Below, piece by piece: positions 24,005 to 58,505 of a stretch of 64,000 nucleotides of DNA (position 1 is its first letter; each line of letters starts with the position of its first letter). Both the position numbers and the translations under genes were made by a program. The stretch is taken from the NCBI RefSeq assembly GCF_007750395.1, contig NZ_CP036281.1:4425001-4489000 (forward strand), read 5' to 3'. A model generated the notes under the pieces. The model saw nothing but the letters and a program-made list of their open reading frames with translations. It did not search any database and had not been told where the DNA came from. The stretch comes from Polystyrenella longa (GTDB lineage Bacteria > Planctomycetota > Planctomycetia > Planctomycetales > Planctomycetaceae).

Positions 24005-25231
24005 TTATTCTTCGATTTCCACCCGAGCCTGATCCGTCAGTTCTGAGTCCGGTGCCAGTATGACCTGATCGCGACTTTCTATTCCCTTTAAGATCTCGAC
24101 TTCGAAGTCATTCATCAGGCCTGTGTCTACTTCTGTTTTCATGGCTTTGCCATTACGCACGACGAAGAGCGACCAATTGTTGTTGAGGTCGCGAAAGAGG
24201 CTCGTTCGTGGCACTATCAAGGTATCGTCGCGTTCTTCCGTGATGATACTCACCCGCAGCCGATAGTCGATGCCCAGCTTTTTGTTAAGTTCCTTCTCGA
24301 TCTCCAAGAGTGGTTTTTCAAACTGAATAATGACCAGTACCCGCTGCTCTTCGACTCCCAGCGACGATACCTTCGTGAAACCCTGTGGATAAATCTTGGT
24401 CACCTTACCGTTGATTTTCGCATCACCTACCGTCGGGCCTTCGATTTCAACCGCATCGCCCACTTCGATCTCAACAGCCTGTTGCGTCAGCACTTCCGCC
24501 TCGACTTCCAGTTTGTCCATCTCGCCAAGTTCCAACAGCACTTCTCCCGCCTGCATCACTTTTTCGTTGGAGACATGCCGTTTCAGCACGGTTCCGGAGA
24601 CAGGAGTTTTAATGACTGACCGGTTCAGGTCCCGTTGATCTCGCAGACGTTCATCTTCCGAATTTATCTTGGCAATTAGCATGGCGGTCTGAATCGCCTG
24701 TATCGACCGCCAGGTTAACACGTCCGTCCGATGGTCCACGCGACTTTCAAATTGTGCTAACTCGGATGCTCCCAGGTCTGATTCGGAGATCGCCTTTTTC
24801 TCCGCCAATTCACTGACGCGCTCGTACTCTCGCTCCTCATACTCAAACTTAGCCAGACTCGCATTAATCTGCTCCTGGGCCGCCTCCACAGCCAAATTGA
24901 TTGACTTGACCACTTCAACAAACTGATTCACTTGTGCGTCGCTCGCTTTGAGATCGGTTTCCAGATCATCGTCGTCCATTTGAGCCACTTGCTGGCCCGA
25001 TTTCACCTGATCACCTTCTTCGAGTTCGATCGGCATGATTCGCCCCGTCAGCGGCATCGTAATTTCGTGAATCTCAGGAAGACGGGTTTTGGCACGTTCT
25101 TCAATAAAAGCGCGAATGGTCCCCTGGCGAACAGTCGCCACTTCGACCAGCATGCCTGATTGCAAATATAACCAGTAACCAAACGCGGCAACGGCGACGA
25201 GAACGACAAAGATAATTAAGAAACGTTTCAT
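24005..25231 (-). CDS. HlyD/MacA-type periplasmic adaptor subunit
   Basis: The 408-residue protein has one N-terminal membrane helix (about 5-23) and the classic adaptor plan: a lipoyl/barrel-sandwich half (GRIMPIELEEGDQVKSGQQVAQMD), a long helical hairpin (about 85-195), the returning half (NRSVIKTPVSGTVLKRHVSNEKVMQAGEVLLELGEM), then a beta-barrel and membrane-proximal domain with TLIVPRTSLFRD. It is the last gene of the ATPase/permease/adaptor set, 43 bp behind the permease. The three should form a tripartite-type exporter of the DevBCA/MacAB kind; no TolC-like gene is in the window. Confidence 0.93.
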   Translation of the reverse strand: MKRFLIIFVVLVAVAAFGYWLYLQSGMLVEVATVRQGTIRAFIEERAKTRLPEIHEITMPLTGRIMPIELEEGDQVKSGQQVAQMDDDDLETDLKASDAQVNQFVEVVKSINLAVEAAQEQINASLAKFEYEEREYERVSELAEKKAISESDLGASELAQFESRVDHRTDVLTWRSIQAIQTAMLIAKINSEDERLRDQRDLNRSVIKTPVSGTVLKRHVSNEKVMQAGEVLLELGEMDKLEVEAEVLTQQAVEIEVGDAVEIEGPTVGDAKINGKVTKIYPQGFTKVSSLGVEEQRVLVIIQFEKPLLEIEKELNKKLGIDYRLRVSIITEERDDTLIVPRTSLFRDLNNNWSLFVVRNGKAMKTEVDTGLMNDFEVEILKGIESRDQVILAPDSELTDQARVEIEE

Positions 25232-25274: not shown

Positions 25275-27656
25275 TTACTCTTTAACATTCAATGCCGCAG
25301 TCCAGTCAAGTCGATCAATCGATCGTTTTAACGGTACATGCGCCAACAAGGTAAAACCGATTCCCACCGCAATCGTGATGAGAATTGAACGAGGAGCGAT
25401 TACAAATGGAATCCGGAACAAATCGGTCCCCATGCTCTCACATAAAAGCCAACCCAGCCCAATGCCCAGGGGGAGCCCGACCAGTAGACCAATGACATTC
25501 AGCACGAGCGATTCCTGCAGGAACATACTCGCAATCTCCCGGGTCGTATAACCCAGTACGTGTAATGTCGCAATTTCCTGTTCCCGTTCGGAGAGAGAGA
25601 TCAGTGAAGAGTTCAACACCGAACCGAAGAAAATCATACCGGCGAAGACAATCGTAATGCCAAGAGAAATCATCAACTGGCCCGTCATCGTTACTTCCAG
25701 CAATTCCTTATCGTGGCGGGCAGAGGAAACAGACTGAACTCCTGGTGTATTCTTTAACTCACGAAGAAACTCATTCTCGACTTTCTTATTACGGACCGTC
25801 TTAAGTTGAATCGAACTAACTGATTCTTCATTGTCGACCAGACGATTGAGATAATCGATGTTCACATAAGCAGACAGACCCAGGTAAGAATTAATAATCC
25901 CCGCGACGGGCACCGCTCGTACTTCCTGTTCCCGTTCGGTGGGTTCGAAGTGGAGAATATCTCCCTCCGTGACATGCAAAATCTCCGCCAGACGTTTCGT
26001 CAGCAGTAAACCAACCGGCGGCAATTCCTGTCTTTCCCCGTCGACATTCATCGGGACCGTCAATTGAGAATGATTTATCAGGCCCGTAACCGAAACTTTT
26101 TTCTCATGATGCTCATACCGCAGTTTACAGGGAACATTCAAGATAGGTTCGGCGTAATCCACTCCCGGCATCCGTCTTGTTTCGAGATAAGCGGAGTAGC
26201 CTCGCGGGTCTTTAAAGCTGATTTCATAATCATTTACCAGCACTTTGGAAAACTGGAAGTCCATCATTTCATCCATGCTGTCGTGCATCGCCATCACAAT
26301 CATCAACAGCATCGCTCCCATACTGGCGGCGAAGATACCGGCCAGAGAACGCATTCGATTGCGGGCAATGCCACGCAATGAGAACTGCGTCTGCAATCGG
26401 AAAGACTTCCACAAGGTCGTCCATTTCTCCAACCAGATGCGTCTTCCCTGAATGGGTGGTTTGGGCCGCATCGCTTCGGCAGGAGAGAGCTTCATCACTT
26501 TTTTCACACCGCGTATCGATCCCAGAATCGAAAACAACAGGCTGATCAACACGCCCGTCATTAGAATTCCCGGATAAGGCCGATTGATCAATCGCGGAAA
26601 TTCAAAATAAGTGGAGTAAACATTCGTCGTGATAATGCCCGCAAACCAATATCCCAGAATGGATCCTGCGATCCCACCGCATAAACCGATCACCCCACCG
26701 AACTTCAAATAGTGTGAGAGGATCTCTCGATTCGTGTAACCGATTGCTTTTAATGTTCCCACCACAGTTCGTTGCTGTTCCACCAACCGGAGCATCAAAA
26801 CATTAAGAATAATGGCCGCGACGGAAAGAAAGATCCCCGGCAGAATAATAACCACCGTTTTCAGGTTCTCGATTTCGCTAGAGAGAAAGAAGTGAGACGA
26901 CTGATCTTCCAGTGGCGTGACTGCAGAAACTCCATAGGGATCCAACACCTGCTCGATCCGGTCGAGTACGTCATCAGGATGTTCCCGATACGATTCATCC
27001 AACAAGCCGACCACCTGGTTACACGCCTCTTGATAATTAAACAGGTCTTCCGCCAGACTCTCTTTGATATAAAAAATACCGGAATTCGCCGGATCAGGAA
27101 TAAGCCCTCCCCCTCCAACAACATAGACATACTCTGAACTGAGAGCCGTTCCGACGATATAAAATTGTTCCTTACGTTCATTCAGGATCAGTTCTATGTG
27201 GTCGCCTGGTTTCAGGTTTCGTTCCCGGGCGAACGAGTCATTCAGAATTATTTCCGGGTGAAGCGAATCCGTGAAGTAGCTCCCTTTGCGGATAACAATA
27301 TTATTGATAATCGGTGACGGCTCTGCAGGAAGCGACAGCACTTGTCCCGACACAGGACGATCGACACTGGGCAAATCAACGGTGACAGGAAACAGAATTC
27401 GCGGTCGAAACTCGGAGACACCTTTAATGTCGTGCAACTGATTCAGTTCAATCGTGGGCATCTTTTTCAGACTGACCGTGAAATCGGCCATTCGGCACTG
27501 GCTGTAATAGATGCGGCGCGAGGTTTCCAGATTGAAGTAGAGAGAGGCCATTCCCACAAAAAAGAGCACACCCGCCCCGATAATGCCGATGATCGCCGCC
27601 AGCATTCCCCGGGAAGATTGCATTTCCCGCCATAGTTTTCGGTCGAGTGGTTTCAC
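25275..27656 (-). CDS. Large FtsX-like ABC permease with duplicated FtsX units
   Basis: This 793-residue permease contains two FtsX-type units. The first has a helix at about 20-42, an extracytoplasmic domain and three helices around 265-385. The second repeats this, with a helix at about 430-455, another outer domain and three helices in 660-785. The coupling segments RTVVGTLKAIGYTNREI and EQEIATLHVLGYTTREI follow the same position in each half. It starts with GTG in a GTGA overlap with the stop of the ATPase gene, so translation is coupled. Double-length permeases of this kind usually work as a single polypeptide with an ATPase dimer. The substrate is unknown. Confidence 0.92.
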   Translation of the reverse strand: MKPLDRKLWREMQSSRGMLAAIIGIIGAGVLFFVGMASLYFNLETSRRIYYSQCRMADFTVSLKKMPTIELNQLHDIKGVSEFRPRILFPVTVDLPSVDRPVSGQVLSLPAEPSPIINNIVIRKGSYFTDSLHPEIILNDSFARERNLKPGDHIELILNERKEQFYIVGTALSSEYVYVVGGGGLIPDPANSGIFYIKESLAEDLFNYQEACNQVVGLLDESYREHPDDVLDRIEQVLDPYGVSAVTPLEDQSSHFFLSSEIENLKTVVIILPGIFLSVAAIILNVLMLRLVEQQRTVVGTLKAIGYTNREILSHYLKFGGVIGLCGGIAGSILGYWFAGIITTNVYSTYFEFPRLINRPYPGILMTGVLISLLFSILGSIRGVKKVMKLSPAEAMRPKPPIQGRRIWLEKWTTLWKSFRLQTQFSLRGIARNRMRSLAGIFAASMGAMLLMIVMAMHDSMDEMMDFQFSKVLVNDYEISFKDPRGYSAYLETRRMPGVDYAEPILNVPCKLRYEHHEKKVSVTGLINHSQLTVPMNVDGERQELPPVGLLLTKRLAEILHVTEGDILHFEPTEREQEVRAVPVAGIINSYLGLSAYVNIDYLNRLVDNEESVSSIQLKTVRNKKVENEFLRELKNTPGVQSVSSARHDKELLEVTMTGQLMISLGITIVFAGMIFFGSVLNSSLISLSEREQEIATLHVLGYTTREIASMFLQESLVLNVIGLLVGLPLGIGLGWLLCESMGTDLFRIPFVIAPRSILITIAVGIGFTLLAHVPLKRSIDRLDWTAALNVKE

Positions 27657-28369
27657 CAGCTGATTTCCTCCGGTGAAATGGGATGCTCGTTCTCTGTCAT
27701 CGACGCAATCGTGCCCGAACCAATATGCACAGTACGGGTCGCCATCTCTGAAATCGCTGAGTTGTGGGTAATCAGTACTACGGTCTTTCCCAACTCCTGA
27801 TTCAGCTTATGCAGGACACCCAAAATGCTGCGCCCTGTAGAGAGGTCCAATGCCCCCGTAGGTTCGTCGCACAGCAGTAGTCTGGGATTCTTGGCGATGG
27901 CACGGGCAATGGCGACTCGCTGTTGTTCGCCCCCCGACATCTGCGAGGGGAAATGCTCCACCCGATGTTCGAGGCCGACCAGTTCCAAAGCTCCTGCCGG
28001 ATCCATTCCCTCCTGGCTTAACTCGCTCGCGATTTGAACATTCTCAGTCGCAGTTAACGTGGGCACTAAGTTGTAGAATTGAAAAACAAAACCGACATGC
28101 TCGCGTCGATAAGCGGTTAACTGGGGATCCGTAAAACTGCTGACCTGCTGTTCTGGCCGATCAAACCAGATCTTACCTGTAGTTGGGCGGTCCAGTCCTC
28201 CGATCAAGTTCAGCAGCGTACTCTTCCCCGACCCGGAAGGCCCGACGATGACGACAAAGTCTCCCTGTTTAATCTGCAGATTGATCTCATGCAGCACGGG
28301 GACTTTCACGTCGCCCATAAAGAACGTCTTGCTAACATTCTCGATCGAAATGATCGTTTCGGCACTCAT
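27653..28369 (-). CDS. ABC transporter ATP-binding protein (MacB/LolD type)
   Basis: The 238-residue ATPase shows Walker [10 protein letters not shown], a Q-loop in [14 protein letters not shown], the signature [14 protein letters not shown], Walker [13 protein letters not shown] and an H-loop in VLITHNSA. It overlaps the permease start by four bases and is the first of the three export genes. The BFD-like gene lies 146 bp upstream on the same strand. It should drive the large permease and adaptor; ATPases of this class energise mechanical transmission in the periplasm or export of peptides and lipids. Confidence 0.94.
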
Positions 28370-28515: not shown

Positions 28516-28809
28516 TTAACAATTTTGTGGAGGCGGGGTGGCTCCGGGTGGAGGAGTTCCTTTTCCAGAGTGAATGTATTGTCCTCGCGCTTGCGCGTAT
28601 TCTTCAGCAGTCAAGTCATCGACTCCCTGTCCTGATTGAGCCTGCTCGAAATATCGTTTCAAAAACGGAATACACCAACCACACCCGGAACCAGCACCAC
28701 CACATTCACTGACCTGACTCGCTCGTTTCGGCTGATAGATACGAATGTAGTTTTCGATCTTTCGTCGAGAGATATGAAAGCAGAGACAGACATGATCATC
28801 AGGTTTCAC
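28516..28809 (-). CDS. BFD-like [2Fe-2S] protein (bacterioferritin-associated ferredoxin type)
   Basis: The 97-residue protein begins with GTG. It has the BFD cluster pattern: C8-x-C10, then C43-x-x-C46 after 32 residues, within VCLCFHISRRKIENYI and CGGAGSGCGWC. An extra Cys is at 36. The last 35 residues are an added Gly/Pro-rich tail (GKGTPPPGATPPP) not needed for the domain. BFD proteins pass electrons to release iron from bacterioferritin or sit in nitrite reductases and similar enzymes; neither partner is in the window. It is 65 bp downstream of the 276-residue zinc-ribbon protein. Confidence 0.85.
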   Translation of the reverse strand: MKPDDHVCLCFHISRRKIENYIRIYQPKRASQVSECGGAGSGCGWCIPFLKRYFEQAQSGQGVDDLTAEEYAQARGQYIHSGKGTPPPGATPPPQNC

Positions 28810-28874: not shown

Positions 28875-29705
28875 TTACTGTCGAGACGTCGGTTTCTCTT
28901 CAGCCGTCTCGATAGTTTGAATCACGATGTCTTCTTCCGTCAAATGGAAAATTAATCCCACCGGATCCAACGTCTGTTTGAGAACTTCACCAAACCCGGT
29001 TTGCTCGAGCTTAATGCTAACCATGGTCGGCTCAATTTCCAACCGGGCGCGGGCTTCGTCGTCATGATAGACGAATGTCGTGCCTGCCAGCATCTCCAGT
29101 TCGTCCAGAACCTTGACTCGATCCAACCCTGGAATTTCATATTGAGCGATTTCCAAACGCATTAACGCTTCCCACTTTTCAGGAATAGGAATCGGCGGTA
29201 CCGCGGGACGCTCTGCCAGTGCAGGGGGGAGATTGCGCGGAACCCAGGCCGGTCGCGGAGCTAACACCGGTTCCCTTTCAAGTTCCACAACTGATTCTGC
29301 ATTCGTGGTTTCAGTTTCTACCAGTTCTTCTTCAGAGACGACTTCGGGTATATCCGGAGAACTTTCCTCAACCGTCTTGACGACTTCGGGCAGTGATTCG
29401 TCCACCTCATGCTGGGGACGCATGATGTAAAAATAGCCCAGTAACGCCATTAATATTCCAGTGATGGTCCAATATAGTGGATTGAGATTTAACTCTTTCT
29501 TGCGAGCAACTGGGAGAGCGATCTCAGTGACGACGGGTTTCACCTCTTCGACTTCGATCTGATACGCTTTATTCAAGTGGACTCGCAGATCCATTTCGCA
29601 AGCAGGACATCGAATTTCTCTATTCACAAAACGACGTTCCCGTACCCGCAACTGTGTATGACAATTGGGGCAATGAAAGGTATAGGTGGGAAACGTTTTA
29701 GACAT
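28875..29705 (-). CDS. Zinc-ribbon, single-TM protein with STN-like C-terminal domain (short paralogue)
   Basis: The 276-residue protein begins with a four-cysteine zinc ribbon (C12, C15, C33, C36) of the MJ0042-like type. One membrane helix follows at about 77-95, then a long acidic Pro/Glu-rich linker (100-165), and a C-terminal alpha/beta domain. The end, VSIKLEQTGFGEVLKQTLDPVGLIFHLTEEDIVI, has the beta-alpha-beta look of secretin/TonB short N-terminal (STN) domains, in which a low-complexity loop leads to a strand ending in V-I. Ribbon inside and STN-like domain outside is the likely topology. It starts seven bases after the larger paralogue, so they are co-translated. The function is unknown. 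Confidence 0.75.
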   Translation of the reverse strand: MSKTFPTYTFHCPNCHTQLRVRERRFVNREIRCPACEMDLRVHLNKAYQIEVEEVKPVVTEIALPVARKKELNLNPLYWTITGILMALLGYFYIMRPQHEVDESLPEVVKTVEESSPDIPEVVSEEELVETETTNAESVVELEREPVLAPRPAWVPRNLPPALAERPAVPPIPIPEKWEALMRLEIAQYEIPGLDRVKVLDELEMLAGTTFVYHDDEARARLEIEPTMVSIKLEQTGFGEVLKQTLDPVGLIFHLTEEDIVIQTIETAEEKPTSRQ

Positions 29706-29712
29706 TGGTCGT

Positions 29713-31530
29713 TTATTGATTTTCTGTTGGGAATGCGTAAGGAGTTTGTTGTTTCGCTGTGGCGGCCGATTTCGTGGTTACGATCACTTTATTATCGGCT
29801 TCATTCAGAACAAGGGCCATTTTCGGATACTGCTTCATCAAATGGGCCAACGCCGTTTCGACGGTCACTTCTCCTAGATTGTAGTTCTGTTGCATATTCT
29901 GCGTATAGCCCTCATTTTTGAGCGCATCACCATCGATTTCGAAAACAATTTTCGATTCCTGACCGATCTGCTCAATCGCTTCCTGAAGCGGTGTCAAACG
30001 AAAATCGATGAACAGAGTCGCCTGCAATCGGTCTACCAGTGACTTCGTTTTCACAGTTTCCGTTGTGACAGGAGCAGCAGTAACGGCAGATTCCGGAAGG
30101 ATTTGTTCTCGCCAATATAACCAACTGGCCAAAGTGAGATTCGGAGCGGCCCGTTCAGACAACGTCGTATTCATCGTGACTCTTTGTTTTTCCACGTCGA
30201 CTGTCGTAAATCGGCTCGCCAGCTGAATCATCGCTGGGAATCGAGCCAGCACCGTCTGTGCTCCCACGGAATGCAATGCCTTGTTACGAAGTTCCTGCCA
30301 AGTCATTTTCCCCATTCCCTGAATGTTAGCCTGCCATTGCTGTTGCAACTTTTTACTGGCGGCAAAAGGAGAAGCTTGTAACTGAATCGAAGAATGAAGT
30401 TGATCGTTCTCCAAATTCAAATCCCATAAGACTGCCTCGGTATCATCACCCCAATAACTTAAAAAGGTCTGTAGAACCTGCTGTTCCCGGGAAGGAATCC
30501 AGTCCTTCATCCCGATCTCAACCGCTTTCAAATCGAACAGAATCGAGACTTCGGCATCGGAGTCTGATCGGGAAATCAACTGATCGAGTCCAGCCGTCAT
30601 CGGCAAGGGATCCGTTCCTGTAGTAATCGCTTCTTCTAATAGTGATGAGGGAACGGACATTCCCGTTTGATCATCCAGCCAGAACAAGCGTTGTTCACCC
30701 ACTGCATAAACCTGAAACCCATCCTGCTGATCGGTCGCGGCTTCCTGACCATTCACCCATGCCTGTAGATCGAAGGTTTCAATGGGTTTGAATTTATAAA
30801 CGAACGAAGGGAGTTGCCCGCGCGGACCGGGAATGAGGTAACAAGTGACGGTCTCTACGTCGGCAGACGATAGACCTGTAAAACCTGTCAATTCTTTTTC
30901 GAGCCAAGGCAGAAGGGCGCCACTGCATTGCCATAGTTCGCCCGGTTGGTCACCCGCTTGTTGAAGGGCCGCTGGCCGCCAATGAAAAACAACTCGCGCC
31001 CCGGTCGGGATATATTCGAACGTAAAAGGTTTGCCCCGGTCGATTTCCAGCACATTCGATTCTGTCTTAGCAGCACTGGCTGCCACTGGCTTGGAAACCG
31101 GTTTAGGAGAAGAAGCCGACGTCACAGGCTGGTTCGGCCCCGCCGTGGAGTTAACATATAAGAACCCACCCATAGCTCCCGCCGAGAGCAACAGAAAGAT
31201 ACCAATAACGATCCATTTCGATCCCGATGATTTTCGTCGACGTCGTTTTTGACGATTCAACAACAGATCATCTTCAGGGATATTCAACTGTGGAATCACG
31301 CCTGCCGGTTCGGACGAAGCTTCTTTTGTTTTTTGCGGTACTGGTTGAGTCGGTGCAACGTTCGGCGAATCCAGAACTCCAAGTTTATTCGAAGTTGGCT
31401 TATTCGTGGGTGGTTTGATTACCAGTGGATTTTTGCATTGCGGGCACTTAACCCGCTTGCCGACCAATTCCGGTTTATTGATCGTTAACCGCTTCTGACA
31501 CGAAGGGCAGGCGACTCGGAAGGGCTTCAT
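29713..31530 (-). CDS. Zinc-ribbon, single-TM protein with STN-like C-terminal domain (long paralogue)
   Basis: This 605-residue protein repeats the plan of its neighbour on a larger scale. The zinc ribbon (C8, C11, C29, C32) is followed by a Pro/Thr linker, a basic stop-transfer patch RQKRRRRK just before a membrane helix at about 106-126, and then an outer domain of about 350 residues that I do not recognise. The last 100 residues include FIDFRLTPLQEAIEQIGQ, followed by GEVTVETALAHLMKQ and ADNKVIVTT, the usual order of an STN or secretin-N module. It lies 19 bp behind ispD. Zinc ribbons of this type occur widely in planctomycete and myxobacterial membrane proteins; a signalling or envelope-assembly role would be a guess. 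Confidence 0.78.
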   Translation of the reverse strand: MKPFRVACPSCQKRLTINKPELVGKRVKCPQCKNPLVIKPPTNKPTSNKLGVLDSPNVAPTQPVPQKTKEASSEPAGVIPQLNIPEDDLLLNRQKRRRRKSSGSKWIVIGIFLLLSAGAMGGFLYVNSTAGPNQPVTSASSPKPVSKPVAASAAKTESNVLEIDRGKPFTFEYIPTGARVVFHWRPAALQQAGDQPGELWQCSGALLPWLEKELTGFTGLSSADVETVTCYLIPGPRGQLPSFVYKFKPIETFDLQAWVNGQEAATDQQDGFQVYAVGEQRLFWLDDQTGMSVPSSLLEEAITTGTDPLPMTAGLDQLISRSDSDAEVSILFDLKAVEIGMKDWIPSREQQVLQTFLSYWGDDTEAVLWDLNLENDQLHSSIQLQASPFAASKKLQQQWQANIQGMGKMTWQELRNKALHSVGAQTVLARFPAMIQLASRFTTVDVEKQRVTMNTTLSERAAPNLTLASWLYWREQILPESAVTAAPVTTETVKTKSLVDRLQATLFIDFRLTPLQEAIEQIGQESKIVFEIDGDALKNEGYTQNMQQNYNLGEVTVETALAHLMKQYPKMALVLNEADNKVIVTTKSAATAKQQTPYAFPTENQ

Positions 31531-31549: not shown

Positions 31550-32296
31550 CTAGCGCCACTGGTCGCCGGGATCATCTTGGAAGGGATGGAGAGATCGTAG
31601 TGGATCTTTCTTTGGAAGCGCTTCGATCAACGATGACGCAATTTTAAAATCTTCGCCCGTGGTGATTTTGATATTCATCGGCGAACCTTCGACCACAGTC
31701 ACCGTGTGCCCGATGGCTTCCACCAGTTGAGCATCATCTGTGGCGATGAGTCCGTTCCGTTTCGCGTAAGCTTCCAAGAGCAGTTCCCGCCGAAAGACCT
31801 GGGGTGTCTGTGCGAGCCATAGATTCTCCCTCGGAACCGTTTCGACGATCTCGTTTTTATCGTTGACCCGTTTCACTGTGCTGGTCACCGGAACGGCGGG
31901 CATCGCCGCACCTGTTTTGATCGCCGTCCGAAAGACATCATCGACCCACTCTTCGACCATCAACGGCCGCGCTGCGTCATGCACAGCAACGAAGTCGATG
32001 TCGGACTTCACCCGCGCCAGAGCATTCTGAATCGAATCTGCCCGTTCCGCACCACCATCGACAATCTCAATATCCATGAACGCGAGGTTAGGGCGAAATT
32101 TCTCCTTAAACCACTCTCGGTCTTCAGGAGAGATGACAATGATCGTCTGTGCGACATCATCCCGATTGATAAATAACTCCGTCGACCGAACCCAGACAGG
32201 CCGTCTGTTGAGTTCCGCGAACGGTTTCTTCATCCGTTTCACGCGACAACGGGTACTCTGACCCGCCGCAGGTAATATGACTGCGAATTTCGACAT
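31550..32296 (-). CDS. ispD: 2-C-methyl-D-erythritol 4-phosphate cytidylyltransferase (IspD)
   Basis: The start is set at 32296 (MSKFAVILPAAGQSTR, 248 residues); the frame extends 11 codons upstream. The protein carries the nucleotide-binding N-terminus VILPAAGQSTR, then KKPFAELNRRPVW, the central VAVHDAARPL hallmark with the metal-binding Asp, and TDDAQLVEAIG near the C-terminus. IspD makes CDP-methylerythritol in the non-mevalonate isoprenoid pathway in the cytosol. The usual basic/Gln stretch (PKQ) is replaced by KKPF. No IspF or other pathway gene is adjacent; it sits between two membrane-protein genes, apparently in one transcript. Confidence 0.9.
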   Translation of the reverse strand: MSKFAVILPAAGQSTRCRVKRMKKPFAELNRRPVWVRSTELFINRDDVAQTIIVISPEDREWFKEKFRPNLAFMDIEIVDGGAERADSIQNALARVKSDIDFVAVHDAARPLMVEEWVDDVFRTAIKTGAAMPAVPVTSTVKRVNDKNEIVETVPRENLWLAQTPQVFRRELLLEAYAKRNGLIATDDAQLVEAIGHTVTVVEGSPMNIKITTGEDFKIASSLIEALPKKDPLRSLHPFQDDPGDQWR

Positions 32297-32461: not shown

Positions 32462-35400
32462 TCAGAAGTTCGGCAATTCAAACACCGCATTGTTGATCGG
32501 GTTAGGTTCTGCGTCTTCCGCTTCCAGCTTAGCCGCATCTGCTTTGACCTGTTGTTGCAAGCTCGCATCGGCAGTTTTCGCTTCAGCTGTCTCGAGGTCG
32601 TGTTCCCGTTTAGCCTGAGCAACCGAAAGCTGGCTGCGATAGGTACGCAGTGGACTCACCAGGAAACGCTCAAGATGCAGTTCACGAGATTCCCACGCAT
32701 AATCCTGCAGTTCAGTATTCGCAGCGAATTTTTCGAACTCATCAAAGGTGAGTTCAATCGCATCGAGTGAGTCCGTCACATCTTTCTGGGACAGTCCAAG
32801 TGAACCAACCGGCATTGTTCCACGAAGCATCCAACGTGATTTCATGAGCTGAAGCATAGCATTCAGCATGTCCGCGCGGCGGGGTTCATTATTCACCACT
32901 TCTGGATGTTCTACCAACAGGACCATCGCGCGAGCGATGTTCTTAATGGACCGATCCTGACTGGAACCATAAAATACGGTGTGCAACAGGTGTCGTAATT
33001 CATCACCTGCAAATTCTTCCGGCAGTCTTTCACAGAGTGCCGCCAGTTCCATATGCGAGAAATAACTGACCAGCGGATCGTAAGGTAGCGAGAACTGCTC
33101 GATGTCCTGCAGATGTCCGCGAGTAATTTGTTGTGCCTGAAACGCGTCGCCCAGAGACTCAAAGTATTCCAACCGGCGGCGGTCTTCTTCGTGCATTCGC
33201 TGCTGTGGACCTTCTCCTTTAACCTGTTTGATCACTGTGCGAGGTTTCTCCTGCACACGTTTACGAACCGGGTTTCGATAGGCCCAATACTTTCCGTTCG
33301 ACATGACCTGCAGTTCCCGTAAGGACTTCAGCTCTTCGAAGCGGTGACTCACTTGATGATCGTCGTCTTCGTCTTTGACCCAGGCGTAAAGTGTGTCGGA
33401 ATGTGGTGGCGCAGTAAGCACCTGCTTTTCCTGTACTTTATTTCCCCAACGCAGCATTTCATGAGGCAGGCTGTAAGCCAGCGATCCATTCGCGGCGGTG
33501 TTGATATGACCGGGTTGTTTTTTCAGAATTTCAGTCCAGGATTCATCGTCCAGTTGCAGAATTTCCAAAGGGACTGCCCAGTCCCATCCGAGGCTGGCGA
33601 GAGCCTGACGTGAATGCGGTTTACGGAGGCGACTCAGTAATCCGGCTCGATTCACTCCCTCTTCCGAATTGGTCCCGATGAGCAACAATTCTCCGGGAGC
33701 CGATTGAATCGTGCTTACCGAACGGAACGCGGCCCGAAGTGTGGTGACGATGTCACAAAGTGGTTGTGAACCATAATCAAAATGCTGGAACCGCTGACAG
33801 AAGAGCCCCTCTTCGTTGAGCGCGTTCGCCGCAGCCTGATAGAATTCGAGCGTATAGCAATTGGTCGACCGTTGTAGCATCGACATCGGTGGACTGGAGA
33901 TAATCACGTCCTGTGGTTCCGCCTGTGATAGGGCCAACCGTGCAGGAAGATCGAGAATTTCAAATCGAATATCGTTTTCAGGAGAGCGATTCTTCCATGC
34001 AGATTCACGGGCGAGTTCGATCACAGCATCTTCGGTTTCGACGCACTTTAATTCCTGTATAGGAAATTGCAGACAACTTTTCACAGAGACGCCCGAAGGA
34101 ACACCGAGCAACATCACCTGGTGAGGTGAACGATGCAGGATCAATGGGAGAACTGCAGGGAGAATCTCTCCTGTATGTTCAGGAATGATGCTTGCATCGA
34201 GGCTGGCGATACCCTGTGGAAGTCCATCAGCGCGGACGAACTGTTGAAGCCCGTTCTGCGACCAGACCGTGTATGTGGCCGATTCTCCTTCAACCTGCTT
34301 GATCAATCGCTGGTCGTTGAGGACTCCCAGTTCGTTGGTATCGGTACCGTTGCGGTAGGCAGCATAAACATCGCTTGAAAAGAGGTATTTCGCGGTACGA
34401 CTGGAATCGAACAGGCGATCAGCCAGAGGAGCGGCCAGGACCAACATCACAGCCGCACACAAACCGGCGACGACCGGTTTGCTGTAGCTGAACTTCCAGG
34501 TTTGAGCCCATTTGAGTCCTGCCAGTGAGAGTAGCAACCATTGGCAGCCGGTCATCAGGTTGACGAGCGAAATGCCGTTTGCCATTAAATATTGAACGGA
34601 AACACAACCCACCACTAAACCCAGCAGACGATGCCAGCGGCAGCAGGAAAGAATATTAACTCGGTTGCCCGGTTGAGCGGTCAACAGACAGCAAACAGCA
34701 GTCAGCCCCAAAGGAGCGACAGCCAGGACAATGCTGCCTAAGCGGAACAAAGTGATCAACCATGTCTGGGATAACTCGGCGCTGATCCACAAGCTTGACG
34801 CAAGCAAAACATCGCTGGCGAGCATCCAGAGAACGGTCCAGGCCGATGCCAGTACCACCATCAATAGCAGAGCAGAAGCAACTTCCGCTTGCGCTGTCTG
34901 AGAATCACCTTGCCGTCTGGCAATGAATTGCAGACCCCAGAACAATCCTATGGCAAAACCGATCCAGACAAACATAGAGACGTACACTGTCCCCGGCATG
35001 TATTGTGTAAACATCCGCTGGAGCAGGAACAATAAACCGCCAATCGCGCACCAGACGCCTGCTTGCCACAATTTTTCCAACCATAAGCTTTGGCCATCTG
35101 CCAGTAACGACTGAAACCCATAAGGGACGTGATGATTTTTGACCGAGGCTCCTTGAACGAGGCGTTCAATACAAACAACCACGAGAGCTGTCACGGAGAT
35201 CCAGGCGATAATTTGTAATCCCCAGAACGGGGCGAGTAAGAGCGACGTAAACGCGATTCCCGAGACCAGACCGGTGGCATAGCGAAAGAGATAACGTTGG
35301 TACTGGCTTCTTTTCTGTCCGTTGACTTCCGCACCCACCAGATCACTCGCGAGTGAATCGGCCGTTCGCACCAGCCAATAGGCCGGCAAGGTCAACGAGA

Positions 35401-35833
35401 TCAGTCCCGATAAACAGTAATAGACGAGCTGCGTGCCGGTTTCCGTTAGTGTAGTACCTGAAAACTGACTCAGCAGAAATTCATTCACCCGATCGAGGTA
35501 GGGGAGTAATACCACCCACATCACTAGACCAATCGTCGCTTGAATCCACGTCGGTAGTATCCGACGGATCAAATTGGAACGAAATGTCGTCGACCAGAAT
35601 AAACCACGGCTGACCGCCCAGGCGAATCCGATTGAAATCGCCACCATACCACCCGTCCGCGCAGGAAACAGATTTCCGGCGGTCGCGAAATAATGATGGA
35701 CGATCGCCAGAGCGATTGGTCCGAGTAGGAACCCAAGCATGAATAAACGAAACGACAGCGAATACAGAGCGATATCGAGAAGTGTTGTCAGCTGTCGGGA
35801 TGTGAACGTTTTTAGTTCGCGTCTTCCGAACAT
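32462..35833 (-). CDS. Polytopic membrane protein with spermidine-synthase-like domain
   Basis: The start is set at 35833, where AAGGA lies five bases before the ATG. This gives 1123 residues; the frame runs 61 codons further up but reads poorly. The first 480 or so residues contain about 12-14 membrane helices. The central part (about 560-760) resembles the Rossmann fold of spermidine-synthase-like proteins, with HQVMLLGVPSGVSV in place of motif I, CVETEDAVIELAR after it and DVIISSPPMSM. A helical cytoplasmic region of about 330 residues ends the protein. Such membrane/spermidine synthase fusions are common in planctomycetes and usually of unknown function. The weak glycine motif makes real aminopropyl transfer doubtful. 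Confidence 0.8.
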   Translation of the reverse strand: MFGRRELKTFTSRQLTTLLDIALYSLSFRLFMLGFLLGPIALAIVHHYFATAGNLFPARTGGMVAISIGFAWAVSRGLFWSTTFRSNLIRRILPTWIQATIGLVMWVVLLPYLDRVNEFLLSQFSGTTLTETGTQLVYYCLSGLISLTLPAYWLVRTADSLASDLVGAEVNGQKRSQYQRYLFRYATGLVSGIAFTSLLLAPFWGLQIIAWISVTALVVVCIERLVQGASVKNHHVPYGFQSLLADGQSLWLEKLWQAGVWCAIGGLLFLLQRMFTQYMPGTVYVSMFVWIGFAIGLFWGLQFIARRQGDSQTAQAEVASALLLMVVLASAWTVLWMLASDVLLASSLWISAELSQTWLITLFRLGSIVLAVAPLGLTAVCCLLTAQPGNRVNILSCCRWHRLLGLVVGCVSVQYLMANGISLVNLMTGCQWLLLSLAGLKWAQTWKFSYSKPVVAGLCAAVMLVLAAPLADRLFDSSRTAKYLFSSDVYAAYRNGTDTNELGVLNDQRLIKQVEGESATYTVWSQNGLQQFVRADGLPQGIASLDASIIPEHTGEILPAVLPLILHRSPHQVMLLGVPSGVSVKSCLQFPIQELKCVETEDAVIELARESAWKNRSPENDIRFEILDLPARLALSQAEPQDVIISSPPMSMLQRSTNCYTLEFYQAAANALNEEGLFCQRFQHFDYGSQPLCDIVTTLRAAFRSVSTIQSAPGELLLIGTNSEEGVNRAGLLSRLRKPHSRQALASLGWDWAVPLEILQLDDESWTEILKKQPGHINTAANGSLAYSLPHEMLRWGNKVQEKQVLTAPPHSDTLYAWVKDEDDDHQVSHRFEELKSLRELQVMSNGKYWAYRNPVRKRVQEKPRTVIKQVKGEGPQQRMHEEDRRRLEYFESLGDAFQAQQITRGHLQDIEQFSLPYDPLVSYFSHMELAALCERLPEEFAGDELRHLLHTVFYGSSQDRSIKNIARAMVLLVEHPEVVNNEPRRADMLNAMLQLMKSRWMLRGTMPVGSLGLSQKDVTDSLDAIELTFDEFEKFAANTELQDYAWESRELHLERFLVSPLRTYRSQLSVAQAKREHDLETAEAKTADASLQQQVKADAAKLEAEDAEPNPINNAVFELPNF

Positions 35834-36120
35834 GGCATCCTTGCCTTCCGGGGTCATTGAGGGAGAGTAGAAGCGTGCGGGAAACTTGAACCAAATTTCC
35901 CATAGGGCGCTATTTTTATCGAAAAACCGGTTCCTATCGCAAGACCAGTCTAAAACAGCGGTTGCGTCCCTACAAAACAAGGTCTCAAACAACAAGACAG
36001 GAAGTATAGGCAACACAGGAGAGACTCTCGTCCGCTTACACTTGCTCTCGCAATTTCCTATGATCCTGCGCAGTCGCTTTTGGTCGAAAATATCCAGCTT
36101 AAGAAAGACACCCGAGAAAT

Positions 36121-52331: not shown

Positions 52332-55300
52332 TTAGTCGACGATCTGCAGTTTCATTTCATCACTATTCGCACGTAATTCAGGAGCGTACATCGCCGACCC
52401 CTGCGTTGGTAACGCACTGAACTTACCGGGAATTTCGGCCCGCAACTGGTAGGTCACACTGTGCTTGCCATGAGCCAGTCGCTGTACAAAGAACTTCACT
52501 TTCTCATTTTTGAATTCCATATACGCCCCCAGACGGTTCCCGTTGTATCCACTTCGCAAATCAACCGCTTCCAAACCGGCCGGTTTATAGTCTTCAAAGA
52601 TCAGGTACTCGTAATCGTTTTTACTATCGATGATCAACTCGACTTCAATCAGATCACCACTTTTCAGTTCGGCATGATTGACGAGTGGTTCGCGTTTGAA
52701 ATTCTCGCTTAATTGATCAATCGCTTGCCCACTGCTGTTCGCCACGGCCGTCTCTTTGTTGTCTGGAATCAAACGGGTGTATCGCCGTTCAACTTTGATT
52801 TCGAGACCGGCCGCTTCGATGAAGTCCTCTTTCGAGAACGTTTTCACATAAGCGTTATAATACAGCGGTCCCGAACCCGTTTTCCGAAGTTCCAGCGTAT
52901 GCCGACCTGATTCCAACGCGACGCCTTCAAGCGTAAACTTGTTATCAATTTCAAACAGGTTCTCAGGAGTGATTTTTACTTCCTTCTGCTTCTGACCATC
53001 AAACCAGACTTCCACCACCATATCGGGGCGATTCTCGCCACTTGCTTTCAAGTATTCGGCTAGAGCTTCAATGGACAGGGCGGTATCGCTGATGCTGCTC
53101 CAGTAGGTGGAGTTCTTTCTATTATTGAGGATGTATTTCACAAGCCGTCTCGCCCGTTCGCTACGTGGGTCGGTCCGTGAAAGCAGTTTCAGGTAGATGG
53201 CGTTGGCTTCGTCTTCGTTGCCATACCAGAACCACCAGAAGTGCCCTGCGGGTAATTGCAACCAGGCCGTTTCATTTTCGGCATCCTGTTGCAGGTACTG
53301 CTCCAGGTTTTCCATTACCTTCGCCAGACCCTCTTTGTCACCAAGGGTGTGCAGAGCTAGGCCGAGCAGACCTTTCGCATATACAGACAGGCTGACCCGG
53401 TCGCGATTCAGGTAAGCATGCATTTCTTCATTCACGCGTCCCCCCTCGACCAACACACCGAAGACGAGTGCGTCGAGATTGTCTGCCTTTTGTTTAAACT
53501 TTTTGTGTTCTGCTTTTTTCGCTTCGTTTTCTTCCCAGTTTTTGATCAGACGAATCTGTTCCTGTTGGTAGTTCTCTAACCAGGCGAGTCCCCGATCCAG
53601 CATTCCCGGAACAAGTGCCACCTGGTTTTTGTCTGCCAGAATCAAACCATGAACAACCTGAGCAGTAATGTGAGGCGAAGAATGTTCGCCGTAGCCGCTA
53701 AGCCAACCCCACCCGCCATCACTCAATTGACGATTGGTAACATCATCCACATGCTGCTTGACGAATTGCTCGATTTTATCCGGATTGTAAACCGGGTTTT
53801 CTTTATCATATTGTTTCCACTGTTTCGCTCGTTCCTGGGGATCGCCTAATTCCTGAGCATTGAGATTGGTCTGCTTTTTCTTAAGCTGTCTCAGATCAAC
53901 CCCCATCTCTTTCAAGATGTTGTAGGTGATGACCGTCGGCACAAACCGATACATCGCGGCATCAGTCGTTTTGTGAGGATAGTTCGCCAAATAAGGCAAC
54001 GCGTCAATCATGGCCGCAGCCAGCGACGGACTGAAACGGAGTTTCAGAACGGATTGTTCAGGAAGTCGTTCCTTCGGAATATCGAATTCGACCGTCGAGC
54101 TCGACTCCTCCGGTTTGACTGTTCCCGCATACGCTTCCATCCGTTCGGCACCATGAATATACACCGGGAAGGACATCTCGACCGCGTCCGACTCTTCATC
54201 GGTCAAGGCTTTCATTCTTAGTGTTACTTCGCCCGGTTGAAGCACCTTCACTCGCCAGTCGATGCGGATCTCTTCACCTGCTGTCAGATTGATTTCACGA
54301 GTCAACTCGTCCATCGATTCCAGCAGCCCCCCCTCCAGTTCGAGAATCGCCTGCACCGATTTGTCTGTTTCCAGATAACTGTGGATGTTTGCAGACAACA
54401 CCACTTCATCCGTTTCAACGAAGAACCGAGGTGCTTGAAGACGAACGAGAAGATTCTTGGAGGTGATCACTTCCGTTTCGCCATAACCGACGCGGGTCCG
54501 GTCACCCATTCCCCAACTGGCAATCTTCCAGGTAGTCAGACTGTCCGGCATTGGAAAGGAGACCAACACAATTCCGTTCTCGTCCGGTTCCAGGTTGGCG
54601 GCCCAGAAAGCGGTATCGGCAAAGTCTTTTCGAATCGTCGGCTCAACAGATTCCCCACCTCCTGCACCTGCTTCAGGGGCTGCTGGTGGGGCACCATCGG
54701 CCATTTCCATCGCCATCTCGCCTCCGAGGTGCATCTTTGACATCGGTGCAGACCGCATCATAGTAATGCTATGATCCGTTCCTCCGCCAAAGCCTCCCTT
54801 ACCTCTATCATAGAAGGACTCCTCGACAATAGCGCCAAACGTCCCCAATTGCTCCATTCGCTGCTGGTCCCGTTTATACAGAACATAGCTGTGGTGATTC
54901 CAACTGGAATTCGTCGACGAACTGTGATGCCGTTTGAAATCCCAGAAGAACTTTTTAATATCTCCAATGGATGAACCACCCGAGATATATTCCACACTTT
55001 TGTCATACGCCGACAGCACCACGGAACCTTGAATCGGATCTCCCTTCAAGTCGGTCAGTTTCAATTGCAGTTTGAGTTCTTCACCCGGCTGATACTTTGG
55101 TTGATCCGCTGTCACTTCAATGTTCATGATTCGTTTTTCAGGCGGAACCACGATGTTCTGTGTGACGCTGTGGATATCACCGTCCGAAATCGTCATGGCT
55201 TCGACGAAGAAATTCGGCATATCATCGGGTCGTACATCGATTTCAAACGAAGTACTTTTCCCGTCCAGTTTCAATGTATAAGGAACTTCATAAACACCGT

Positions 55301-58300
55301 TGACCGGTCGCACAAACAACAGCACAGTCGAACCGGTTCGATTCGTGTTAATGCGCAACTGGACTTTGTCGCCAGGTTGATATTCCTTCTGCTCCACCAG
55401 GAGTTCCAGATCGTTGTACCGGAATCCCTTCCCATCGAATCCTGCTCCGTAAACATTAAGGACGGTCGCCCCTTCCTGCTCGTGGCCTGCTTCATCTTTG
55501 AGTAGGTAAGAGATACGGTACTGACCTGCTTCCGCCAAATTCATCTTCTGAGTTACCAGGCCCTCTTCGTTAGTGGCGACGTCCCATTTCTCAACCAACG
55601 TTTCCAATGGCTTACCATCTTCGGTGTAGGTAATTTTGATCAGATGAACTGTTCCCTCACCTTTAACCGGTTTACGATTCAAGGTGTGTGCTTTGAACGA
55701 GGCTTCAATCGTATCACCTACCCGGGCGTATCCTCTGTTCGTCCAGGCGACGATATCAAACAGTTCACGCGCCACCAACACTTCGCCGTTACCGACGATC
55801 GTACGCCGTGATTCATCCACGACTTCCGCCGTAATTTCGTAGCGGTGATCCTGATCTCCATGCATCGCCTCGGCGAGAGCGGTATCGATCTCGACGGTAA
55901 CTGATCCATCGGCACCGATCTCCACCTCTTGATCCAGCACGACTTCGGGAGGATCACTTTGCTGAGGCCACCAATATGGATAAGGCCGGACGCATCCCCA
56001 ACGCGAGAAACCCGGGTACCAGTCCCATTCCGGAGTAAACCACCAGTAACCATTTCCGTACAACCAGTCCCAGGTGCCAGAAGGGTACCAGCGATTGCTG
56101 TATTCGCTTCGTTTAACAGTGAAATGAACGGTCGCGTTTTTCACAGGTGCCCCGAAGTAGTATTTAGCTTTAATCGTCGCCGTAATTTTTTCACCCAGTT
56201 GTACAGGTTCCTCTGGTGCGTCAATTGTCACTTCGTATTCGGTTTTTTTGTATTCCTCGACTCGGAAAGAACCCCAACCCTGCACGCGTGGGTTGTCGAT
56301 AACATTAAGCGAATAGGTTCCGAGAGTCGCTTCTTCCGGCAACTCGTATTCGCCATTGAAACCGCCAAAGGCGTCGGCCGTGAATTTTTTCGTCCAGACT
56401 TCTTTGCCTTGCGGATCGTTCAATCGCAACTGAAATTCTTTATTGGCATACACGGCCGGAGCCATCGTCGAGTAACGGGCATTGCGGACCCAGAACTTAA
56501 ACTGCACGGTATCCTTCGGCTTATAAACCGGCCGGTCGCTGATGTAGAAGGCCTTATGCGTATCGTGGCCCGGATCGTTTTTCGGCTGGTGCCAGATGCT
56601 TTGGAACCCAAGATAGGCTAAACGGCCTTCCTTCGTGCGCGCGATCATTAACCAGTTGAAATTGTGCGGTGCCCGGTTTTCCGAAACGGTGAACTGTCCC
56701 TCTTTGTCTGTAAACTCCGCAAAGTGCTGTGTTTTGATTTCGATCTGATTGGGATTACGAGGACGCGGGCGTTCAATTCGATACCCTATCATTTCCACAT
56801 TCGCTCCGGGAACGGGCGTTCCCGATTCCGCATCAGCGACTAGATACCAGCTTTTATTGTCCGCCCGCTTGCTGACAATAATCGTATCATTCATCCACAA
56901 CACAATCCGGGTTTCATTCCCATCCTGCATCCGAGCCGTGATGAAGTAGGCACCCGCTTGATTCAACGGAGCGCTGATTGTCTTTAGCTTGTCGTAATGA
57001 CCCGCCAGAGGATCGAGATCAACATTCCATTCAGCCACTTTTTTACCAAGGTATTTTTCCTGATTTCCCTCAACCAGTTGTTGTCCGATATTTTCAAACT
57101 GCAGTTTCAGCGAATCCAGTTGCTTGGGATGTGACTTGAGATGCTCAATACAATCCTTCAACAATTCATCCAGCTTGATTTCCACCGCTTCGAAATGCAC
57201 CTGTTTTCCATTACGGAAGCGATACAGAAATTTTCCGCCTTGAGAGGGAATCTGGCTTTCCGTCTCGACCTGAAACTCACCCCAGTTACCGATGATCTGG
57301 TCGAGGCTTTTCTGTTTGTGATCGTTATTGCCCGGTCCAAACCGCTTGATGTTCTCGCGGATCATTTCCGCCGCTCGGGCATACTGCCGTCGATTTTTGA
57401 AAATGTTTTCCAACCGACTTAATGCCTGTTCGGCGTAATTGCCTTTATCTTCCGCCGCGATTTCCAGGAAGATTTTGATGTAGCTGAAGTCTTCTGGCAG
57501 CGTAAACCGTTTGATTCCTGTCGCCAGCTGAGCCAGCGTTTCATCCTCTCCCAGTGTATGCACCGAGTAAGGAGCCGTTGTCTTGTCGAGTTTGTTCGGG
57601 TCGTCCGTTGCCTGTGAGATCTGCTTATAGAAGAGGGGTTGATCTCTCAATGTCTGCACACCAAACAGCGATTGTCCCCAATCGCCCAGCTGCATTTTGA
57701 CTCGCATTTTGTGATCTGAAGTCGTCGACGCCGCTTGTGCGAGTGCCCACCGCCAGCGCTGGCCATCATTGGCAGCAGCTTCCCAGCTTTCCGGAACAGT
57801 GAAGGTGATTGGATTTCCCTCATCATCGACAGGGGCTCCGTCAAAATCAGGAGCGCCCATACGGCGATAACCGCCAAAACGGGGATTGCTGTTCTCGGGT
57901 TCCGGAAGTTCGGAGAGGTCGGTCAACGTCTGCATTTTCCAGGAATCGTATGTAGAACGACTCATCTGCACGGTGTTCGCGAGCTCAAAGTAGAAGTCCC
58001 CCTTCTCTTTGGCTTTCACTTCGGTATCCTGCAGCTTCAACTCCAACGCCTGCACCATCAGCTGCAATGCCCGCACACGATCGCGTTCTTCCAGACTGAC
58101 ATACTGGGCACCACCCCGTGAATGACCACGCGTAATTTCATCCCCGATGATGTAACCATAATGCTGCACTGAACGATAGGAATTCGCGACTTCCTGCACA
58201 ATTCGCCAATCATCTCCATGCACCATCACCACCATTTCGAGTAGCGGGTCGATCTCTCCAATTCGGTCCAGGTTATACAGACAAGTGGTGAGTTCCTGCA

Positions 58301-58505
58301 GGCTCCGCCTAGCCGTGGTGGTATCGGTTTCTGGTTTCAGGACCAGATCATGGTAGATGTCGTATGCGTTTTTATAATTTCCATCCTTCTGTTCCTGATT
58401 GGCCTGTTCGAACAAAGGATTCTCTCCCTTTTCAGCAGCAAATAGATGACCTGTGAGATTGGAACTGATCGCTACAAAAACCAGGGTGAACAACAAACGC
58501 AACAT
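52332..58505 (-). CDS. Alpha-2-macroglobulin-like giant secreted protein, thioester site lost
   Basis: The 2057-residue protein has a signal peptide (about 1-24) and TPR-like helices in the first 200 residues. A macroglobulin body follows: [23 protein letters not shown] near 655, [15 protein letters not shown] near 920, [18 protein letters not shown] near 1040 and [20 protein letters not shown] near 1140. The ANL-type region [34 protein letters not shown] lies near 1300, and a helical toroid from about 1500. At Y1509-F1521 the family pattern YP-YGCTEQ-T-M-x-RF is replaced by [13 protein letters not shown], so the Cys and Gln of the thioester are absent. It can still act as a protease trap or structural protein without covalent capture. 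A Met/Ala/Gly-rich insert lies around 1255-1295. No PbpC-like gene is adjacent. It is monocistronic. Confidence 0.9.
   Translation of the reverse strand: [2057 protein letters not shown]

Follow-up and report, generated by a model that had tools for sequence, protein, structure and literature searches.

We tentatively propose that two adjacent genes of Polystyrenella longa encode an inner-membrane receptor or docking complex of the planctomycete envelope. The genes lie in a 64,000-nucleotide stretch of contig NZ_CP036281.1 (positions 4,425,001 to 4,489,000; hereafter the window). Their products are P0002 (605 residues; window positions 29713..31530, minus strand), in which a zinc ribbon is followed by a transmembrane (TM) helix, a domain with the fold of TP0453 of Treponema pallidum, and a STN domain, and P0001 (276 residues; 28875..29705, minus strand), in which ribbon and helix are followed by a disordered linker and a second STN domain. 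Computational analysis established the domain anatomy, the two folds, the pairing of the genes, the ectodomain shared with relatives, the swap of cytosolic heads and the loss of kinase motifs. We favour a receptor because the tandem is conserved, the middle domain of P0002 has the TP0453 fold, counterparts carry pseudokinase heads, the outside modules recur in BlaR1 fusions, and the layout resembles that of FecR and PupR. A more far-reaching version, which we consider doubtful, would be a two-protein, split receptor in the envelope of this planctomycete class, in which a constant core of lipid-binding TP0453-like domain and shared STN is combined with exchanged cytosolic heads, such that one signal could be read by different machineries.

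Domain anatomy of P0002 and P0001

A preliminary description, made from the sequence alone, had reported a tandem of zinc-ribbon, single-helix proteins ending in STN-like modules, and this tandem is real: the open reading frames (ORFs), four-Cys ribbons, single TM helices and C-terminal STN/N0 folds were all found. The two genes had been described as starting seven bases apart; the spacing is correct, but it separates the stop codon of P0002 from the ATG of P0001 rather than the two starts. Both ribbons have the form CxxC-x17-CxxC and precede one TM helix and a terminal globular domain. The four cysteines of the P0002 ribbon (residues 8, 11, 29 and 32; 31411..31518, minus strand, as for all features of the pair) are kept in 42/42 aligned P0002-like rows, and the Pfam ribbon matches of P0002 itself all fall under cut-off. 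For the P0001 ribbon (Cys 12, 15, 33 and 36; 29544..29684), C15, C33 and C36 are invariant among 34 P0001-like rows and C12 is kept in at least 90% of them. This ribbon is LysW-like by Foldseek (3wwn and 3wwl, probability 1.00, E 0.05-0.06) and matches Pfam Zn_ribbon_8 at E 1e-4, under the cut-off of that family. The two ribbons, which presumably bind zinc, resemble each other, as a recent duplication of one gene into the other might have left them, but the ribbon end of the P0002 profile finds matches phylum-wide.

The TM helix of P0002 (residues ~104-126; 31153..31221) follows the basic stretch RQKRRRRK and is supported by family hydropathy and charge bias, and that of P0001 (residues 76-95; 29421..29480) was placed from its model. 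Among P0002-like rows the mean charge is 6.4 before the helix versus 0.1 after it, with a bias toward N-in/C-out in 41/41 scored rows (of 42); the same bias, in weaker form, is found in 27/34 P0001-like rows. A cytosolic ribbon and an outside C-terminal part are therefore predicted for both proteins. Alignments, charge bias and models thus agree with the earlier assignment of ribbon, single helix and outside STN to both proteins, with the topology standing as a prediction.

A model of the P0002 ectodomain (residues 155-605), built with 43 relatives taken from named loci, has a mean predicted local distance difference test score (pLDDT) of 86.4 and a predicted template-modelling score of 0.68. 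Residues ~169-471 (30118..31026) match TP0453 in Foldseek at E 3.1e-9 (3k8g_A) to 2.3e-8 with probability 1.00, TM-scores by target of 0.50-0.56 (3k8g_A 0.52) and ~10% identity. VIA comparison with the TP0453 structures gave Z 12.2-13.0 over 211-219 residues (root-mean-square deviation, rmsd, 4.5-5.0; best 3k8i, Z 13.0, rmsd 4.6, 211 aligned of 247), the next rows confined to this stretch reaching Z 4.9, in a listing where the absence of a family does not exclude that family. The extra domain attributed to P0002 in the preliminary description is hence present, but is nearer 300 residues than the 350 first given. The TP0453 fold rules out that this domain is a second secretin-type module. At the sequence level, entries 3k8g-j were not listed by the P0002 or middle-domain profiles against PDB sequences (E up to 5). 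According to a review, TP0453, a putative lipoprotein on the inner face of the outer membrane, has been proposed to carry lipids and glycolipids (PMC5421087); elsewhere it served as a control protein (PMC3406077) or appears in reference lists (PMC10353723, PMC5956850). P0002 shares the fold of TP0453, but is without detectable sequence similarity to it, is anchored by a TM helix rather than a putative lipid anchor, and joins the domain to STN. The middle domain alone was found in 20/294 sampled genomes of the phylum, 17 of them from the same family (Planctomycetaceae; hereafter the family) and 3 from a second family in its class, and occurs once in this genome (profile search, E up to 0.1).

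The C-terminal domain of P0002 (residues ~497-592; 29755..30042) has as its best STN match in VIA the putative anti-sigma factor 4m0n (Z 10.0, rmsd 1.8, 74 aligned), followed by EscC (3gr5; Z 9.9, rmsd 2.7, 84 aligned), the N0 domain of PilQ (4ar0; Z 8.9, 84 aligned) and XcpQ (Z 8.2), with contractile-spike chains at Z 9.8 and 9.1 in the same list. Pfam STN gave no match for P0002 at E up to 5 and was not among the matches listed (25 of 37 families) for the 42-row P0002 alignment. The model of P0001, built with just 14 relatives (mean pLDDT 73.5; blocks at 181-260 reaching 84-93), shows the ribbon and the helix, then a stretch of disorder, and finally a confidently predicted domain at residues ~176-265 (28911..29180). 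VIA matches this domain to EscC (3gr5; Z 8.8, rmsd 2.9, 84 aligned), XcpQ (4e9j; Z 8.6) and FoxA (6i97; Z 8.6), but baseplate chains of phages and injection systems outrank these (9qgm, Z 9.6), and in Foldseek even the best match stays at E 5.7e-3, short of E 0.001. The fold of P0001 alone does not single out STN; the sequence links do. We assign P0001 to STN because its profile matches both the STN of P0002 (hhalign 83%, E 8.7e-6, 9% identity) and the N0 domain of the secretin encoded in the same genome (63%, E 6.8e-5), with a P0001 profile that includes one row (L126) not resembling the domain, and because Pfam STN is found at E up to 0.05 in 11/34 P0001-like family rows, P0001 itself not being among them. 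Two scanned partners from outside the family exceed the 28.4-bit Pfam STN cut-off (33.1 and 31.2 bits). The two C-terminal domains therefore match STN and each other, the comparison on which the preliminary description had staked its proposal. Searches of PDB sequences with the P0002, middle-domain and P0001 profiles returned at best ribbons, plus GspD at E 0.12 for P0001; an NCBIfam search of the pair gave nothing informative; and neither Pfam nor NCBIfam placed a secretin barrel domain in P0001 or P0002.

The P0002 STN belongs to a recognisable subfamily with a motif around DGDALKxAGxTxNMPQ, of which this genome has one copy. STN domains of this type were also seen on other planctomycete proteins, including a tetratricopeptide-repeat-type membrane protein, cytochrome-c'-like proteins and DUF7133/cytochrome proteins (L191:235-1518, L196:3061-4203, L193:4485-10301, L194:1512-6260).

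The order of parts invites comparison with FecR and PupR, in which a cytosolic domain, one TM helix and an extra domain precede a terminal STN; the PupR authors regard the C-terminal position of STN as new for this domain (PMC7186176). A single helix with an outside STN, presented as novel in the preliminary description, is thus not new by itself, and PupR (6ovk; VIA Z 6.8 for P0002 and 7.9 for P0001) is, with 4m0n, among the fold matches. As sigma regulators of this type, P0002 and P0001 would hold an extracytoplasmic function (ECF) sigma factor by the ribbon and read an outer-membrane transducer by the STN. The part order of PupR, the 4m0n and 6ovk matches, and a Pfam FecR_C match in a single partner from each set (family, n=34; non-family, n=16) speak for such a role, and the predicted N-inside orientation and the STN at the extreme C-terminus are further likenesses. 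Nevertheless, we do not class the pair as sigma regulators because it has no anti-sigma domain, Pfam giving only ribbon-type matches at the N-terminus. Unlike FecR and PupR, moreover, two such proteins stand in tandem, and the extra domain of P0002 is TP0453-like rather than the all-beta CJM subdomain. No transducer gene or ECF sigma cluster was recognised among recurrent neighbours, defined as the 19 clusters that reach at least 5 of 81 family loci (the window and 80 others; representatives Pfam-scanned or judged by eye), nor was an ECF sigma or transducer gene recognised by eye in the window's ORF listing. With TonB and TonB-dependent receptors reported by one survey in only four of its planctomycete genomes (PMC3422733), this explanation appears highly improbable.

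Conservation of the pair and exchange of the cytosolic head

P0002 is matched at E<1e-20 in 140/150 genomes of the family, its own included. Eight of the remaining ten have weak matches only (E 8.5e-8 to 8.4e-4), which may be to the ribbon alone, and two have none; eight of these ten genomes are <90% complete. Plain BLAST with P0001 found a match in 74/150 family genomes, mostly to the ribbon end only. Among the 79 family loci with room downstream, several of which come from the same genus and are not independent cases, 47 have a ribbon-TM ORF on the same strand within 700 bases downstream of P0002 (median gap 35), against a background of 1/710 other neighbourhood ORFs (mechanical calls of at least 90 residues, some perhaps not genes). 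Pairing, which the preliminary description had proposed as a test, is thus found in other genomes both within the family and, as set out below, beyond it. A chance tandem of unrelated ribbon proteins is ruled out by this conservation.

Many long P0002 matches in other families of the class are proteins of ~1000 residues, from which 20 non-family loci were picked by hand. In 16 of these the TM helix comes only after ~400-560 residues (in L279 after 750, where the start may be placed too early), followed by the TP0453-like domain and STN; the other four, all of family f88, start close to the helix and have neither kinase nor ribbon. Pfam Pkinase was detected in 16/16 scanned heads at E up to 0.01, some of them under the curated cut-off (L261, 22.5 bits vs 31.7), and the L272 head, among the strongest, matches solved kinases (4eqm, E 6.7e-26; PknB, E 4.6e-23). 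The catalytic motifs have largely been lost: the VAIK Lys is kept in 0/16 heads, the HRD Asp in 3/16 and the DFG Asp in 0/16, and the DFG Gly is replaced by Pro in 15/16. Judged by these motifs, the counterparts of P0002 in other families carry a Hanks-type pseudokinase, predicted to be catalytically dead, instead of a ribbon. They resemble transmembrane Hanks-type kinases in carrying the domain on the cytosolic side in 16/20 cases, but differ in having lost the catalytic Lys and DFG Asp in 16/16, and P0002 of the window lacks the domain altogether.

The partner gene is retained across this change. A ribbon gene lies downstream in 16/19 eligible non-family loci (L271 ends on its contig), and the three loci without one all belong to family f92, DAHP synthase following in L273. 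Of the 16 partners, 15 score a TM helix at the 1.7 cut-off (L260 reaching 1.53), and in 12 an STN-like profile finds a match at E<0.1. Flanking genes differ between the lineages, with IspD in the family and a beta-eliminating lyase upstream in L268. In a tree of ectodomains (24 of 81 family rows; rows L266 and L269 with over-long stretches), the window's family stands apart from the rest (100/100) and the four headless rows require two changes. A repeated change of head on the non-family side is supported; with its arbitrary root, the tree does not settle the order of the heads. Because pseudokinase, ribbon or neither is found on the same ectodomain with a conserved partner, the ectodomain and partner gene are the more constant parts and the cytosolic head of P0002 is exchangeable. 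The preliminary description had missed both this replaceability and the TP0453-like domain.

Several non-family partners (within L260-L279, e.g. L261:7991-10417) have two STN-like segments, with stretches between them that read by eye as N1-like. These partners resemble the periplasmic part of a secretin without its barrel; Pfam Secretin_N is found, weakly, in 2/16.

The outside modules of the pair also seem, from profile matches, to occur fused in a known class of sensor. In family genomes, BlaR1/M56 membrane proteins at L301:2595-6016, L302:3601-6399 and L303:3124-5922 carry an apparent TP0453-like module followed by DUF1559, Pfam M56 and DUF1559 being present in 3/3 scanned. The middle-domain match covers the first half only (E 1.2e-12 to 4.3e-8 in the small set, 1.7e-10 to 4.5e-6 in whole genomes). 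The L301 gene is immediately preceded by a Penicillinase_R (BlaI-type) gene (Pfam E 3.6e-26), and a single match spanning at least residues 13-801 of the L301 protein is found in 21 further genomes of the 150 from the family, 7 of them of its own genus. These BlaR1-like proteins are possible envelope sensors of planctomycetes. Weaker TP0453-like matches were obtained to a secreted-looking DUF1559 protein (L304) and another ribbon-TM protein (L305). DUF1559 (SBP_bac_10) is matched at E up to 0.05 by 15/34 P0001-like partners in the family and by 3/16 outside it, with no Pfam match in P0001 of the window. Two types of outside module that P0002 and the DUF1559-bearing relatives of P0001 carry on separate proteins are thus joined in a single receptor-like chain, and this joining, on a known sensor class, links the ectodomain of P0002 with those of these partners. 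The likeness to BlaR1/M56 receptors with their BlaI repressor lies in these modules; P0002 and P0001 have no M56 domain, the modules occupy two genes in the relatives, and P0001 lacks DUF1559.

DUF1559 also bears on the main competing explanation, a secretin or pseudopilus docking scaffold in which the inner-membrane STN/N0 domains would stack on the N0 ring of the outer-membrane secretin in the manner of GspC or PilP and the DUF1559 relatives would contact a pseudopilin fibre. In a related planctomycete, 91/100 proteins with a prepilin motif also carry SBP_bac_10 (PMC8567305), the domain shared with the P0001-like partners. Secretin N0 domains (EscC, PilQ, XcpQ, GspD) are among the best folds, Secretin_N occurs at E up to 0.05 in the two non-family partners noted above, and the secretin whose N0 the P0001 profile matches (Pfam Secretin E 1.1e-40, with STN) is the sole STN match of the genome at E up to 0.001. 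A shared N0 fold is, however, no sign of binding. The domain also stands at the C-terminus of P0002 and P0001 instead of the N-terminus, and we do not class the two as secretins because they have no barrel. The recurrent neighbours of P0002 loci include no cluster that was recognised as secretin or type II secretion, and a scaffold would leave the TP0453-like domain, the pseudokinase and the BlaR1 fusions unexplained. Overall, we regard a scaffold as rather unlikely.

A possible receptor of the planctomycete envelope

According to the favoured receptor reading, the TP0453-like domain of P0002 would bind a lipid, lipoprotein or other amphiphile outside the membrane, and the STN of P0001 would be held on a flexible tether of ~75 residues (many relatives having DUF1559 before the STN). 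P0002 and P0001 may be coupled by their STN domains, through binding to one another or to a further envelope protein that bears STN. The state of the ligand could then pass via the single helices to cytosolic docking heads, which would be zinc ribbons here, the dead kinase on the P0002 counterpart elsewhere, and, in either lineage, the ribbon that the P0001-like partner carries. The ligand, the STN-STN contact, the signalling and the direction of information we infer. The preliminary description had suggested a transmembrane sensor or assembly factor, a possible role that gains weight from the pseudokinase counterparts and from the BlaR1-like proteins with TP0453-like and DUF1559 ectodomains.

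A number of observations weigh against this reading. The modelled likeness to TP0453 is one of fold only, at a TM-score of 0.50-0.56 and ~10% identity, and the fused TP0453-like matches are sequence-level only and weak on the scale of whole genomes (E 1.7e-10 to 5.8e-4). As P0001 of the window has no DUF1559, the fusion argument is not directly applicable to it. Within the family, 32/79 loci have no ribbon-TM neighbour; 29 of these genomes were searched, yielding a long P0001-like match in 16 (elsewhere, or beside P0002 without a ribbon), a split match in 2 and short matches only in 11. Since the head is swapped or missing, the core function may be something other than signalling to the cytosol, and no ECF sigma factor was recognised in the recurrent neighbour clusters. 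Finally, near-universal presence in the family and a single copy here suit a housekeeping part of the envelope as well as a sensor.

If correct, the proposal would offer a testable function for a protein that almost every sampled genome of one planctomycete family encodes, within a group whose envelope is poorly understood; in Planctopirus limnophila, ~20% of essential genes are reported to be of unknown function (PMC10632474). A fold known from a spirochaete outer-membrane lipoprotein is placed in receptor-like contexts, and one outside core is seen to bear either a zinc ribbon or a dead kinase domain as its head. As far as our searches show, what is new within the literature covered is a TP0453-like domain joined to STN, the presence of a tandem partner, and cytosolic heads that alternate between pseudokinase and ribbon: the titles and abstract openings retrieved for TP0453 and for planctomycete STN/secretin, type II secretion, DUF1559 (SBP_bac_10), pseudokinase, FecR and BlaR1 do not describe the pair, which is no proof of absence.

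Neighbouring genes and other features of the window

IspD (31550..32293, minus strand; Pfam E 9.8e-57) lies directly upstream of P0002 with 19 bases between, and is a neighbour outside the proposed complex. Downstream of P0001, also on the minus strand, are genes for a BFD-type [2Fe-2S] protein (28516..28809; Pfam Fer2_BFD E 4.8e-9) and, assigned by Pfam, an ATP-binding cassette (ABC) ATPase (27653..28369), an FtsX-type permease (25275..27656) and a HlyD-type adaptor (24005..25231; HlyD_3 E 3e-16). Among the 81 family loci, recurrent clusters correspond to the BFD-type protein (21), IspD (15), ABC ATPase (13), HSP20 (13), FtsX (7) and HlyD (7), as well as a sigma-54 activator (7, mostly on the opposite strand) and a histidine kinase (5, in no fixed position). 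An operon with IspD or the ABC genes was rejected as a weak functional clue, given 15/81 and 13/81 loci.

The ABC, FtsX and HlyD genes would acquire a role if P0002 served in lipid or lipoprotein trafficking, its TP0453-like domain shuttling lipid from the inner to the outer membrane, STN docking the acceptor, and the transporter supplying energy. Such a function follows most directly from the TP0453 fold and its proposed lipid-carrier role (PMC5421087), and the three genes do lie downstream in the window. They recur, however, in only 13, 7 and 7 of the 81 loci; TP0453 is described as a putative outer-membrane lipoprotein, whereas P0002 is held by a TM helix; and the kinase and ribbon heads would go unexplained. 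Trafficking is thus distinctly unlikely in our estimation.

Three further proteins of the window, all on the minus strand, were noted in passing. A 1184-residue multi-TM protein with a spermidine-synthase domain (32462-36016; Pfam E 2.3e-6) lies upstream of P0002 in 11/81 loci. A 2057-residue bacterial alpha-2-macroglobulin-like protein is encoded at 52332-58505, with MG2, bait region, A2M and bMG10. By eye, a 616-residue protein at 61989-63839 has two N-terminal hydrophobic stretches and a very long tail rich in Asp and Glu.

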